Of a stretch of 64,000 bases of DNA, positions 37,053 through 40,987 are shown piece after piece. Below the pieces are notes generated by a model. That model ran no database searches and was not told where the DNA came from. It saw only the letters and a list, made by a program, of their open reading frames with translations. The DNA is taken from the NCBI RefSeq assembly GCF_002161805.1, contig NZ_NFIP01000002.1, forward strand, positions 62,001 through 126,000. Reading direction: 5' to 3'. This stretch comes from Collinsella sp. An307 (lineage in GTDB: Bacteria; Actinomycetota; Coriobacteriia; Coriobacteriales; Coriobacteriaceae). Position 1 is the stretch's first letter, and each line of letters begins with the position of its first letter. The position numbers and the translations under genes are program-made.

Positions 37053-38273
37053 ATGCACACTGATGATTTCGATTACAACCTCCCCGCAGAGCTCATCGCC
37101 CAGGCTCCGGCCGAGCCGCGCGATTCGTGCCGGCTGCTGGTCCTTCACCGCGGCGAGCCGCTTGCGACGACGGGGGAGTCCGTGCCCCTCGCGCATGGCG
37201 GCAGCGTCGAGCACCGGCACTTCTTCGACATCATCGACTACATCGAGCCGGGAGATGTGCTTGTCATCAACAAGACGCGCGTCATGCCGGCGCGCCTCAT
37301 CGGCCGCAAGCCCACCGGCGGCGTTGCCGAGACGCTGCTGTTGCGCCGCCGCGAGGACGTCGACGCCATGGGGCATGTGTGGGAGTGCCTGGTCAACCCG
37401 GGCAAGCGCCTTAAGCCCGGTGCGGTGATTGAGTATCGCGCCGGCGGGGCGCACGCCCCCGAGAGCGCGCCGGTGGTGCTTACCGGCGAGGTCATTGACT
37501 TTGTGCCCGAGAGCCGCGGAGGCCGTCTGGTGCGCTTCACGCCGGAGGGGGAGGGCGCAGACGGTGCACCGCGTACGCTCGATGAGGCGATTCATGCGGC
37601 GGGCCATGTGCCGCTGCCGCCTTACATCACCGACTACGCGGGCGACCCCGAGAAGTACCAGACCGTCTACGCCATGAAGGAGGAGCACTCCGCCGCGGCG
37701 CCCACGGCCGGCCTTCACTTCACGCCCGAGCTCATGCAGCGTATCGAGGACAAGGGTGCGCGCTTTGTGGCGGTCGAGCTCGAGGTGGGTATCGATACGT
37801 TCCGCCTGGTGGAGGAGGACGATCCCACCGAGCACGTCATGCACACCGAGCGCTATCACGTGCCTGCCGAGGTGATTGACGCCGTGCACGAGGCCAAGCG
37901 TGCGGGCCACCGCGTCATTGCCGTGGGTACGACGGCTGTGCGCTCGCTCGAGAGCGCCTTTGATGCCGAGGCGCCTGTTGCGGAGCCGCCCGTGGTCGCC
38001 CGCCGCTTCGAGGGCCGCGCCGACAGTGCCGACACCCTTGGGCGCGGAGACGTGGTCGTGCGCACGGACGCCACGACCAATCTCTACCTCATGCCTGGGT
38101 CGACCTATCACGTGGTGGATGCGCTCATCACCAACTTCCACGTGCCGCGCTCCACGCTCATGATGCTCGTGTCGGCCTTTGCCACACGCGAGCAGGTTAT
38201 GGACGCCTATGCCGCGGCGGTGCGCGAGCGCTACCGCTTCTTCTCCTTCGGCGACGCGATGCTTATCGAGTAG
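37053..38273 (+). CDS. queA: tRNA preQ1(34) S-adenosylmethionine ribosyltransferase-isomerase QueA
   Basis: 406 residues. It adds the cyclopentane ring to preQ1 in tRNA to make epoxyqueuosine. DFDYNLPAELIAQAPAEPRDSCRLLVL is the family opening; INKTRVMPARLIGRK, PPYITDYAGDPEKYQTVYA, AAPTAGLHFTPEL and LITNFHVPRSTLMMLVSAF are conserved blocks. The ATG at 37053 follows GGAAGGG; TTG at 37038 is in frame but lacks a site. Works with Tgt (44368) before and QueH (26568) after it in the pathway. Confidence 0.96.
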   Translation: MHTDDFDYNLPAELIAQAPAEPRDSCRLLVLHRGEPLATTGESVPLAHGGSVEHRHFFDIIDYIEPGDVLVINKTRVMPARLIGRKPTGGVAETLLLRRREDVDAMGHVWECLVNPGKRLKPGAVIEYRAGGAHAPESAPVVLTGEVIDFVPESRGGRLVRFTPEGEGADGAPRTLDEAIHAAGHVPLPPYITDYAGDPEKYQTVYAMKEEHSAAAPTAGLHFTPELMQRIEDKGARFVAVELEVGIDTFRLVEEDDPTEHVMHTERYHVPAEVIDAVHEAKRAGHRVIAVGTTAVRSLESAFDAEAPVAEPPVVARRFEGRADSADTLGRGDVVVRTDATTNLYLMPGSTYHVVDALITNFHVPRSTLMMLVSAFATREQVMDAYAAAVRERYRFFSFGDAMLIE

Positions 38274-38396
38274 TTCATCCGTCCCGGCGTTCTCGCGCTC
38301 AGTGCGTCCGCTTAGCTCGCCCGCATCCGTTCGCCGGCATGTTTCTACCGTTTGCGACAAGCGCCATTTTTCCTGTTAGATGTGGTATATAGGGCC

Positions 38397-38727
38397 GCTA
38401 TTCGGGAACAAGAGGAGTGACGGAAAAGGAAGTCGCTCCAGAGGAAAGCGACCGGACGAGGAGGTGAGTCCCATGGGCACAGAGGATATAGCTAGGGCCT
38501 GTGGGTACGGCGCCTGCGAGACCGAGGTCGTGTAAGTACCGTGGGTTCGTGAAGGTGGCCCGACGTCCGCCCCGCGTGAGATGGGGTTGAGACCGATGAC
38601 GTGGTCGTAGGGGCAGCCCACAGGAGAGCATACGGGTTCCGTTCCTTCGGGAGTGGAATGGAGGAGAGTCCACCGTAATAGTTACTTGCCGGGGAGGCAC
38701 CGCTTAGGCGGTGCCTCCCTTGGTTTT
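38397..38727 (+). ncRNA. Structured non-coding RNA of unidentified class
   Basis: An extended -10 TGGTATATA (38383-38391) and a strong intrinsic terminator (38692-38727) bracket about 330 bases with no good open frame and much pairing. Stems: GGAGTGAC/GTCGCTCC near 38415-38440; CCTGTGGG (38498-38505) with CCCACAGG (38617-38624), enclosing a multi-branched region with a CCCC/GGGG hairpin; and TACGG..CCGTA (38631-38677) around a UUCG-capped stem. It is neither tmRNA nor a convincing RNase P RNA. Size, purine-rich conserved-looking loops (AGAGGAAAG) and Coriobacteriia context make a raiA-type RNA one hypothesis. Confidence 0.7.
38692..38727 (+). terminator. Intrinsic terminator of the structured RNA
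   Basis: GGGAGGCACCGC (38692-38703), loop TTAG, GCGGTGCCTCCC (38708-38719), then TTGGTTTT. A 12-bp perfect stem, the strongest terminator in the window. Confidence 0.85.
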
Positions 38728-38882: not shown

Positions 38883-39143
38883 ATGGCATCAGACACCATT
38901 GCGGTGACGCGTCGTTTTGATAAAAACCTATTGATTGAATTTGACTCGACGGCAGATGCCATTGGAATTTCTCCGACAAGTGCCATGACGGTCTTTATGA
39001 AGCAGTTCGTGGCTCATAGGGGTTTTCCGTTTGAGGTGAAGGTGCCAGTCCCTACAAAGGATGAGTACATCCGCGAGATGGATGAGATTTTCGCCGAGAT
39101 GCGCGCTGGAAAAGCCGAGGCTCATGAGCTTATCGAGGTATAG
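38883..39143 (+). CDS. RelB/DinJ-family antitoxin
   Basis: 86 residues. MASDTIAVTRRFDKNLLIEFDSTADAIGISPTSAMTVFMKQFVAHRG is the ribbon-helix-helix DNA-binding part typical of RelB/DinJ, followed by a flexible acidic C-terminus (DEYIREMDEIFAEMRAGKAEAHELIEV) that would wrap the toxin. ATG at 38883 behind AAGGGAG; an upstream ATG at 38838 has no site. Two bases separate it from the YoeB-type toxin. The surrounding AT-rich DNA suggests recent acquisition. Confidence 0.9.
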   Translation: MASDTIAVTRRFDKNLLIEFDSTADAIGISPTSAMTVFMKQFVAHRGFPFEVKVPVPTKDEYIREMDEIFAEMRAGKAEAHELIEV

Positions 39144-39145
39144 CC

Positions 39146-39403
39146 ATGGAGAAGTCTTGGTCGGAAAAGGCTTGGGATGACTATCTGTGGTGGCAGTCGC
39201 AGGACCGAAAGACGCTTCGTCGCATCAATGCTCTCATCAAGAGCATTGAACGCTCCGACGGAAAGCCAATGGGCAAAGCGGAGATGCTGAAGGGAAACCT
39301 CGCAGGGTATCAGTCAGTGCGCATAGATAAGGCCAACAGGCTTACCTACACCGTTCAGGATGGCGTGCTGTATATCCTTCGTTGCCGAGGCCACTATCAG
39401 TAA
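39146..39403 (+). CDS. Txe/YoeB-family mRNA endoribonuclease toxin
   Basis: 85 residues, the usual size. Catalytic residues fall at the same numbers as in E. coli YoeB: E46 (KAEMLKGN), R65 (NRLTY), H83 and Y84 (RGHYQ). The toxin cleaves mRNA at the ribosomal A site and is neutralised by the preceding RelB-type antitoxin. YoeB usually pairs with a YefM/Phd antitoxin; pairing with a RelB-type partner is a known exchange between families. All key residues intact. Confidence 0.93.
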   Translation: MEKSWSEKAWDDYLWWQSQDRKTLRRINALIKSIERSDGKPMGKAEMLKGNLAGYQSVRIDKANRLTYTVQDGVLYILRCRGHYQ

Positions 39404-39420: not shown

Positions 39421-40842
39421 TTATAGGACAAAGACGAGCACAAGCACAATTATCACGACGACGATGATGCCCGCGATCGCGGCGCCGAAGCGCAGGCGGG
39501 ATCCGCGGGTTTGCGCGCGCACGTCGTTTTCGGCGGCGGCGAGCGACTCGACCTCAGCGAGCGACTCGTCGCGCTCGGCGCGGTCCGCCTCCAGACGCGC
39601 GGCTATGGTCTCGGTCACCTCCGGGTGTGCGTGGATATCCTCGGCCTCGTCGATAACGGTTTCGGCGACGGCGATCTCGTCTGAGGCATCCTGCTCGACC
39701 TGCTCCTGGGCGCGTTTTGCCTTCTCCTGATCAGAAATCTGACCCTTCAGGGCGCGCTGCCGCTCCTGAGCGTCGTCCTTAGCGCTCTGGTAGGCCTCAC
39801 GCGCCTTGTCCGCAGCGGCAGACGCCTCCTTAAACGTAGTCTTGGCGGCTTCGATAGGCTTCTCGTTTTCGGTGAGAGCCCGCTCGGCCTGCGCGATAGC
39901 CTGCTCATTTTCCGAGGTCACGCGGGGCAGATCCTCCTGTGCGCGGCGCAGCGCATCGGTGGCGTCGGCAATGTCGAGCTCAAGTTCTTGGGCGCGCACG
40001 CTGTAGTTGGCGGAGTTGGCCGAGGGATTTCGCTGCACCTCGGTGAACTCTGCCTTCAGTGAGTCGAGGCGCGCCTGTGCGCTCTCCACTGCGGCCTTTG
40101 CCGCAGCAACGCCGCTCTCTTGCTCCGCACGGGCCTTGTCGAGGTTGTGCTTGGCGTCGTCGAGGCGGCGCTGAAGGCGCGAGCCCTGCTCGCGGGCGCT
40201 CGTTTCGGTGGCCTCCGCCGCCTCGAGGGCGGCCTTCAGGCGCTTCTCAGTCTGCGCGTCCTCGTCCTTCATGGTCTGGAGCTTTTCTTTGAGGGCGTCG
40301 ATCTCTTGCAGGATCTGTGCCTGCTGCTCCTGGGCGGCGGCGCGCTTCTCCTCGGCGGCAGCGATGCGAGCGCGCTCTTCGGTAAGAATCTCCTCGTAGC
40401 GCTCGGCGATATCGCGACGGTGCGCGAGCTCGTCCTCCTCGTCGGCGATGGTCTTCTCGAGCCCCTCGAGGTGCTCGCGCGCCTCGGCGTGGGCGCGCTT
40501 GGCGGCGCTCATAGCGCGTACGGCGCCCGCGCCCTCGGAGAAGAAGGAGCTGACGGCGCTCATCGCTCCGGCAGCGACCTCGGCCACACCGTGTTCGGCA
40601 TCCTCGGCGGCGTGCTCCGCTTCGACGTCCGCCGGTGCCAGCGTGGTGGGTTCGGTGCTCGCCAAACCGGCGGCATCGATTGCCTCATCGGCGGGGGCGT
40701 CCGCACCGTCGCCCTCTGTGGTTACGGTCTTGGCTTCGAGGGAGTGGTCCCGCTTAAGGAAATCGGGAATAGCCGCGCCAGTCTCCTCAACCGTATCGTT
40801 CATATCGTTCAGCTCCTCGTCCACGTGCTTCTGCTCGTCCAT
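39421..40842 (-). CDS. Tail-anchored coiled-coil protein
   Basis: 473 residues. An acidic disordered N-terminus (1-95) leads into long coiled coil (about 120-430) rich in Ala, Glu, Lys and Arg, then a positively charged patch (RAQTRGSRLRFG) and one C-terminal membrane helix AIAGIIVVVIIVLVLVFVL with nothing after it. This is a tail-anchored topology with the coil in the cytosol. No family was recognised; it could shape or tether the membrane or divide it from the nucleoid. The ATG at 40842 follows GGAGG; a TTG at 40854 is in frame. Confidence 0.75.
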   Translation of the reverse strand: MDEQKHVDEELNDMNDTVEETGAAIPDFLKRDHSLEAKTVTTEGDGADAPADEAIDAAGLASTEPTTLAPADVEAEHAAEDAEHGVAEVAAGAMSAVSSFFSEGAGAVRAMSAAKRAHAEAREHLEGLEKTIADEEDELAHRRDIAERYEEILTEERARIAAAEEKRAAAQEQQAQILQEIDALKEKLQTMKDEDAQTEKRLKAALEAAEATETSAREQGSRLQRRLDDAKHNLDKARAEQESGVAAAKAAVESAQARLDSLKAEFTEVQRNPSANSANYSVRAQELELDIADATDALRRAQEDLPRVTSENEQAIAQAERALTENEKPIEAAKTTFKEASAAADKAREAYQSAKDDAQERQRALKGQISDQEKAKRAQEQVEQDASDEIAVAETVIDEAEDIHAHPEVTETIAARLEADRAERDESLAEVESLAAAENDVRAQTRGSRLRFGAAIAGIIVVVIIVLVLVFVL

Positions 40843-40987
40843 CGCATCCTCCAAAGCGCCCTGCCGGCGGCTGAATGTTCAATGGTTCCATGATACTTGC
40901 TCGCGCGGTCAAAGGTTGGATGAATCAGGCCATTGAGCGAGCTTGTCGCTCGATGGCATTCGTTGGTAATAACGTTGAAAATGTTGC

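Follow-up and report, generated by a model that had tools for sequence, protein, structure and literature searches.

A structured RNA with an embedded short ORF in Coriobacteriaceae and Atopobiaceae, a candidate RNAIII-like dual-function sRNA

Introduction

The raiA RNA is a free-standing, conserved structured RNA of Firmicutes and Actinobacteria. SgrS and VcdRP are sRNAs in which a short ORF is kept separate from the base-pairing region. VcdRP has been described as a dual-function RNA that encodes a protein of 29 aa (PMC8672173), and Collinsella-1 RNA (RF01700) has been reported as a candidate structured RNA from Actinobacteria of the human gut (PMC2864571). For the regulator AgrA, two direct repeats are found upstream of the RNAIII promoter (PMC4227749), and operators of LytTR regulators consist of 9-bp repeats that lie 12 bp apart, e.g., ACCGCTTGT-12-ACCGCTTAT (PMC6193735). 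No regulatory RNA network was found described for Collinsella, Olsenella and relatives, and the literature covered holds no description of an RNA such as the one analyzed here in these bacteria; a fragment of it might already be among the motifs that supplement the paper of Fremin and Bhatt (PMC8040213).

Here, we analyze an RNA locus in a 64,000-nt stretch of Collinsella sp. An307 DNA (the whole stretch is referred to as the window), for which an initial annotation had proposed a free-standing structured RNA of unidentified class. At a probability of roughly 45%, we read it as the founding example of a new family of free-standing regulated RNA that would be both the messenger for a 15–22 aa peptide and a structured regulator, i.e., an RNAIII-like dual-function sRNA.

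Results

The RNA locus is flanked by queA, whose stop codon is at 38273, and by a RelB/YoeB toxin–antitoxin pair (38883–39403). Its transcribed part would cover positions ∼38397–38727 of the plus strand, the same extent as given in the initial annotation, and the regulatory repeats push the 5′ limit of the unit to ∼38326 (Table 1). The stretch folds at a minimum free energy of −149.1 kcal/mol (z = −4.8), and none of 100 dinucleotide shuffles folds as well. The strong terminator noted before was confirmed by its 13-bp stem, and a terminator-like stem is present in 75 of 81 loci.

Table 1. Features of the RNA locus (window coordinates).
Feature	Position	Strand	Remarks
Distal 9-bp direct repeat TCCGTTCGC, putative LytTR-type operator	38326–38334	+	21-bp period, 12-bp spacer
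Proximal 9-bp direct repeat ACCGTTTGC	38347–38355	+	Pair with distal repeat
−10-like box TATATA	38386–38391	+	Aligned A+T-rich box in homologues (GTATAT, GGAATA, TTTAGT and others)
Conserved 5′ hairpin GTCGCT/AGCGAC, just 5′ of the ribosome binding site	38432–38452	+	GTCGC/GCGAC-type stem in ∼60 of 82 loci
5′ initiation block AGGAGGTGAGTCCC: Shine-Dalgarno AGGAGG and conserved GTGAGTCC	38459–38472	+	Kept in all strong homologues
Small ORF, 20 aa, MGTEDIARACGYGACETEVV, stop TAA	38473–38535	+	Perfect Shine-Dalgarno; frame conserved
P1 5′ strand CCTGTGGG, inside ORF	38498–38505	+	12-pair consensus helix, 91.2% of cells paired (87 sequences)
P3 5′ strand, conserved CGAGGTC, last ORF codons	38526–38530	+	Helix 5: 94.8% paired, 5/5 pairs change on both sides
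H3 hairpin	38542–38561	+	Helix 6: 90.5% paired, 6/6 pairs change on both sides
H4 hairpin, CCCC/GGGG here, TCCGA/TCGGA elsewhere	38570–38586	+	Helix 7: 86.9% paired, 5/5 pairs change on both sides
P3 3′ strand, conserved GACCG	38590–38594	+	Partner of 38526–38530
P1 3′ strand CCCACAGG	38617–38624	+	Partner of 38498–38505
UUCG-capped stem, lineage-specific	38639–38656	+	Seen in the window and closest relatives only
3′ block GGAGGAGAGTCCACCGTAATAG, degenerate initiation-block copy without start codon	38660–38681	+	Consensus AGGYGAKTCCA(AA/CC)GTA
Intrinsic terminator, 13-bp stem and T tract	38691–38720	+	Terminator scan

Of 60 relatives searched by BLASTN, 22 carry the stretch. The homologues share a block, AGGAGGTGAGTCCcATGGGCACAGAgGATATAGC, in which a Shine-Dalgarno sequence and a start codon are followed by the opening codons of a short ORF. 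Searched for as a degenerate pattern, this block matched in 35 of 397 Coriobacteriales genomes, with 0 control matches, and among 84,980 named species genomes it matched 36 contigs. Collinsella, Enorma, Olsenella, Thermophilibacter and relatives account for 34 of these; the other two (Lewinella and a Lachnospiraceae) were discounted as probably due to chance. A covariance model of the core (R1) scored at least 54 bits, below which there is a clear gap in the scores, in ∼70 of the 397 Coriobacteriales genomes, all of them Coriobacteriaceae or Atopobiaceae. Carriers include 9/9 genomes of the window's own genus, about one third of a Collinsella-like genus (g3) and nearly all of an Atopobiaceae genus (g18). 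Among the matches at 20–33 bits are genuine distant relatives that share the initiation block and have an ORF of 15–22 codons, and probably some noise. An even, phylum-wide sample of 396 genomes gave no match to the covariance model outside Coriobacteriaceae and Atopobiaceae. As judged from these searches, the RNA family is restricted to these two families of gut and oral bacteria.

The region had been thought to hold no plausible protein and the RNA to be purely non-coding. Neither view holds: a small ORF with its own ribosome binding site overlaps the fold, and its frame is kept at 15–22 codons in 77 of 78 distinct homologous sequences, while the one frameshifted copy reads 32. What stands of the earlier description is a structured, stand-alone RNA of no known class. 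Among the 78 sequences the ORF starts with ATG (43), GTG (30) or ACG (5) and stops with TAG (50), TAA (20) or TGA (7), and even variants that escape the block search pattern keep both frame and stop. The peptide consensus is roughly [MV][GN][TS]E[ED]I[AV]xFGPAxxxTE[VA]x. Compared to shuffled columns, amino-acid conservation reaches z = 21.9 in frame versus 7.1 and 8.9 out of frame, and out-of-frame values of this size indicate that a constraint at the nucleotide level acts as well. The second half of the ORF doubles as the 5′ strand of helices P1–P3, so that part of the peptide pattern is forced by the stem; the third-position codon bias is modest (39%), which is expected with a stem over the ORF, yet leaves some ambiguity. 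That the ORF is translated is suggested by the ribosome binding site in combination with start codons that alternate and with stop codons of three kinds at one aligned position.

Five Collinsella copies (L166, L169, L170, L173 and L189) carry ACG in place of ATG, with the same frame and stop, which would mean either that ACG serves as a natural start or that the peptide has been lost. Together with the frameshifted copy, they indicate that the peptide may not be needed everywhere.

The consensus fold consists of an outer helix P1, inner helices P2–P3, and the hairpins H3 and H4 in the junction. Cross-pairing strands between species gave a partly decisive result, since close relatives share helices, and slid strands and shuffles served as controls instead. 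In alignment A1, 25 sequences aligned without reference to structure, 84.3% of the cells are paired and 81 are changed on both sides, compared to at most 48% and 31, respectively, for slid strands. Building a covariance model from homologues and searching for covarying pairs, as the initial annotation had proposed, revealed strong covariation: among 87 model-aligned sequences, 87.2% of the cells are paired and 395 are changed on both sides (slid strands, 35–46% and 69–125), 35 of 36 pairs show changes on both sides, and none of 500 shuffles reaches the observed values. A1 is the fairer test, because the 87-sequence alignment was fitted to the structure. All consensus pairs of P1 vary on both sides among the 87 sequences.

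The previously proposed stem enclosing 111 bases thus corresponds to this covariation-supported outer helix, P1. Two further stems were borne out in part. The GGAGTGAC/GTCGCTCC hairpin loses its 5′ half in relatives and gives way to a conserved GTCGC/GCGAC hairpin that uses the same strand and shows compensated variants now and then; the UUCG-capped stem exists, but is not conserved beyond the closest relatives. Folded on its own, the window copy has a minimum-energy structure that departs from the consensus around the start codon, and we prefer the consensus fold because it covaries. As the ORF lies inside the 5′ strand of this fold, translation and folding must compete.

These features could in principle belong to a small messenger RNA and nothing else, with the peptide as the product, the fold as a 3′ UTR and coding structure that sets stability or translation rate, and no targets of its own. 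A perfect Shine-Dalgarno sequence, the conservation of frame and stops, and the strong terminator would suit such an RNA. Heavy covariation far past the ORF and a second conserved block at least ∼125 nt after the stop argue against it, as do the variable length and C-terminus of the peptide and the copies that lack an ATG but keep the structure. We therefore regard a pure messenger as unlikely, though as a serious alternative to a dual-function sRNA.

The second conserved block, here called the 3′ block, was detected in 73 of 81 loci, typically 20–30 nt before the terminator. It resembles the 5′ block, with AAG or CCG replacing the start codon, and in four loci it was recovered as a second match of the 5′-core model. 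The 3′ block is the best candidate for a functional tail of the RNA. In a distant relative (L188), the block lies ∼30 nt before the terminator and retains an ATG, giving an ATG-AAC-AGC-TAA mini-ORF, which is in line with the 3′ block being a former initiation site. An alternative helix between the 3′ block and the P1 5′ strand (TTTGGA/TCCAAA), seen by eye in some copies, was rejected, since the two kinds of 3′ block do not vary in step with the type of P1.

The likeness of the two blocks also allows for a reading in which translation matters and the peptide does not. A stalled or terminating ribosome would then decide whether P1–P3 form and whether the 3′ block is available. In line with such a switch, the ORF and the 5′ strands of P1–P3 share nucleotides, the stop codon lies just past P3, and the initiation site is outside the core; overall, however, we consider it rather doubtful. 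Equally doubtful is its further step, in which the freed 3′ block would bind the 30S subunit or a protein recognizing both blocks. When pairing of the two blocks with the 3′ end of the 16S was extended, it proved inconsistent: full pairing of GGYGAKTCCA requires a bulge and, in many copies, a C-A mismatch, so that there is little support for the 3′ block binding to the 16S. Slightly more doubtful still is a ribosome-gated sRNA, whose shared nucleotides would be read as codons or serve as a core strand, with the start-less copy as a decoy or effector exposed by the translation state.

Upstream of the transcribed part, CCGYYNR-type repeat pairs occur in 50 of 66 non-redundant upstream regions, compared to a mean of 0.5 and a maximum of 3 in 200 shuffles. 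The repeat period is 21 bp in 42 cases and 20–19 bp otherwise, and the exact repeat pair of the window occurs only once in the host genome, at the RNA locus. Scanning the region for a sigma-70 consensus gave no promoter match. The promoter of the initial annotation thus lacks a consensus match, but a TATATA box is located at the expected place and the direct repeats upstream of it are conserved. Across homologues, the −10 box lies either 28 or ∼38 bp past the proximal CCGTT, two distances about one helical turn apart. Taken from these elements, transcription would start near position 38397.

The repeats are close to, although not identical with, published LytTR repeats, and by this resemblance a LytTR-family protein may activate the RNA. 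Seven LytTR matches are found in the host genome; none of the LytTR genes examined there has the same repeat nearby, so that no autoregulated LytTR gene sharing the repeats was seen. A correlation between LytTR and RNA presence was uninformative, as LytTR proteins are encoded in all 67 family genomes as well as in genomes without the RNA. In Atopobiaceae, the gene directly ahead of the RNA encodes a membrane protein that has two LuxR helix-turn-helix domains, and the repeats fall into the last codons of this gene. One of the LuxR domains is central and the other C-terminal in this protein (L083:5552–6964, minus strand, and relatives). This LuxR-type membrane regulator was discarded as a general activator, since neither the host genome nor most RNA-bearing relatives have an orthologue.

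The neighbors of the RNA vary by lineage and include queA, DAHP synthase, the LuxR-type membrane protein and others. No downstream gene is common to the loci; the next gene differs and is often on the opposite strand, which, along with the terminator-like stems, favors a separate transcription unit. The RelB/YoeB pair, on the plus strand directly 3′ of the RNA in the window, was otherwise seen in just a few of the closest relatives and is absent from most others. Further downstream, at 39421–40854 on the minus strand, the window encodes a protein that is predicted to form a coiled coil, has a hydrophobic segment at its C-terminus and does not match Pfam; its cluster (c1) is a frequent neighbor of the RNA in Collinsella-like genomes. 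A leader-peptide-like ORF, a competing structure and a terminator are the usual parts of an attenuator, but the lack of a shared downstream gene, including the toxin–antitoxin pair, speaks against a cis-acting leader in which peptide and terminator control the gene behind it, and we consider this very unlikely.

cmscan against Rfam, suggested along with the initial annotation, gave no match anywhere in the window at the gathering (curated) thresholds, and only below-threshold chance matches in the region at E≤5. The raiA-type identity that had been considered is not supported, as the raiA model did not match even at E up to 5, and the covariance model of RNAIII likewise gave nothing at either setting, gathering threshold or E≤5. 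Collinsella-1 (RF01700), whose model was included in the library, gave no match either. RsmY, which would have suggested CsrA-type GGA motifs, scored 16.9 bits against a threshold of 57 bits and was treated as chance. The RNase P RNA (RF00010, 285 bits) and tmRNA (RF00023, 144 bits) of the genome are located on other contigs, and ARAGORN found no tmRNA in the window. The 6S model (RF00013) yielded a single candidate, at another place on the same contig, with 36 bits compared to a cut-off of 46 bits. This sub-threshold candidate (L037; G000 contig C10:173606–173767) is possibly an unannotated 6S RNA of this lineage. Because the genome's copies, or candidate in the case of 6S, are found at other loci, our RNA is not 6S RNA nor, as had been anticipated, RNase P RNA or tmRNA. 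Size and free-standing location would fit some known classes, but Rfam gave no match at gathering thresholds, and the genome has its RNase P RNA and tmRNA at other loci; that the RNA is a diverged form of a known class (raiA, 6S, tmRNA, RNase P RNA, SRP RNA, Collinsella-1 or RNAIII) is the least probable reading of all. Of the two identities suggested at the outset, a new family is the better one.

Discussion

At the level of sequence, the family is defined by a conserved fold, a conserved ORF, operator-like repeats, a terminator, a start-less copy of the initiation block and its restriction to two bacterial families. A presumably transcribed, stand-alone unit that combines a conserved structure with a conserved ORF would fit the class of dual-function sRNAs. 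In the dual-function reading that we favor, a LytTR-family regulator would bind the repeats and turn on transcription, and the peptide would be produced from the ORF. Ribosomes on the ORF would melt P1–P3, so that the RNA would alternate between translated and folded forms. The latter would act in trans via the parts that it leaves exposed, of which the conserved 3′ block is the likeliest.

If true, this would be the first candidate RNAIII-like regulator in Collinsella, Olsenella and relatives, which are abundant gut and oral Actinobacteria. With its covariance model, conserved ORF and operator, the family is defined well enough to be located in any such genome. It is unusual for a conserved ORF to overlap a core that covaries so strongly, and this makes it directly testable how one molecule might serve both translation and RNA regulation. 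Should the ribosome-gated reading be correct, translation of the ORF buried in an sRNA would directly determine the activity of that sRNA.

Like raiA RNA, the Collinsella RNA is a free-standing structured RNA, but its region has no match to the Rfam model of raiA, and the model of Collinsella-1 RNA sets that candidate apart in the same way. The closest likeness in architecture is to RNAIII of Staphylococcus aureus, the delta-haemolysin-encoding effector of agr: both are stand-alone, highly structured RNAs of a few hundred nucleotides with an intrinsic terminator and a short peptide ORF which, here from sequence, has its own ribosome binding site. Moreover, the promoter repeats follow the LytTR (AgrA) architecture of 9-bp direct repeats with 12-bp spacing (PMC4227749, PMC6193735). 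We do not assign the RNA to RNAIII itself, because the Rfam model does not match, and the analogy stands beside clear differences: the Collinsella peptide is unrelated and acidic, there is no linked agr locus, the ORF lies inside the covarying core, and the 3′ end carries a start-less copy of the initiation block. The pairs SgrS/SgrT, SR1/SR1P and VcdRP/VcdP likewise join an sRNA to a short conserved ORF; in contrast to SgrS and VcdRP, the ORF and the conserved fold of the Collinsella RNA share the same nucleotides.
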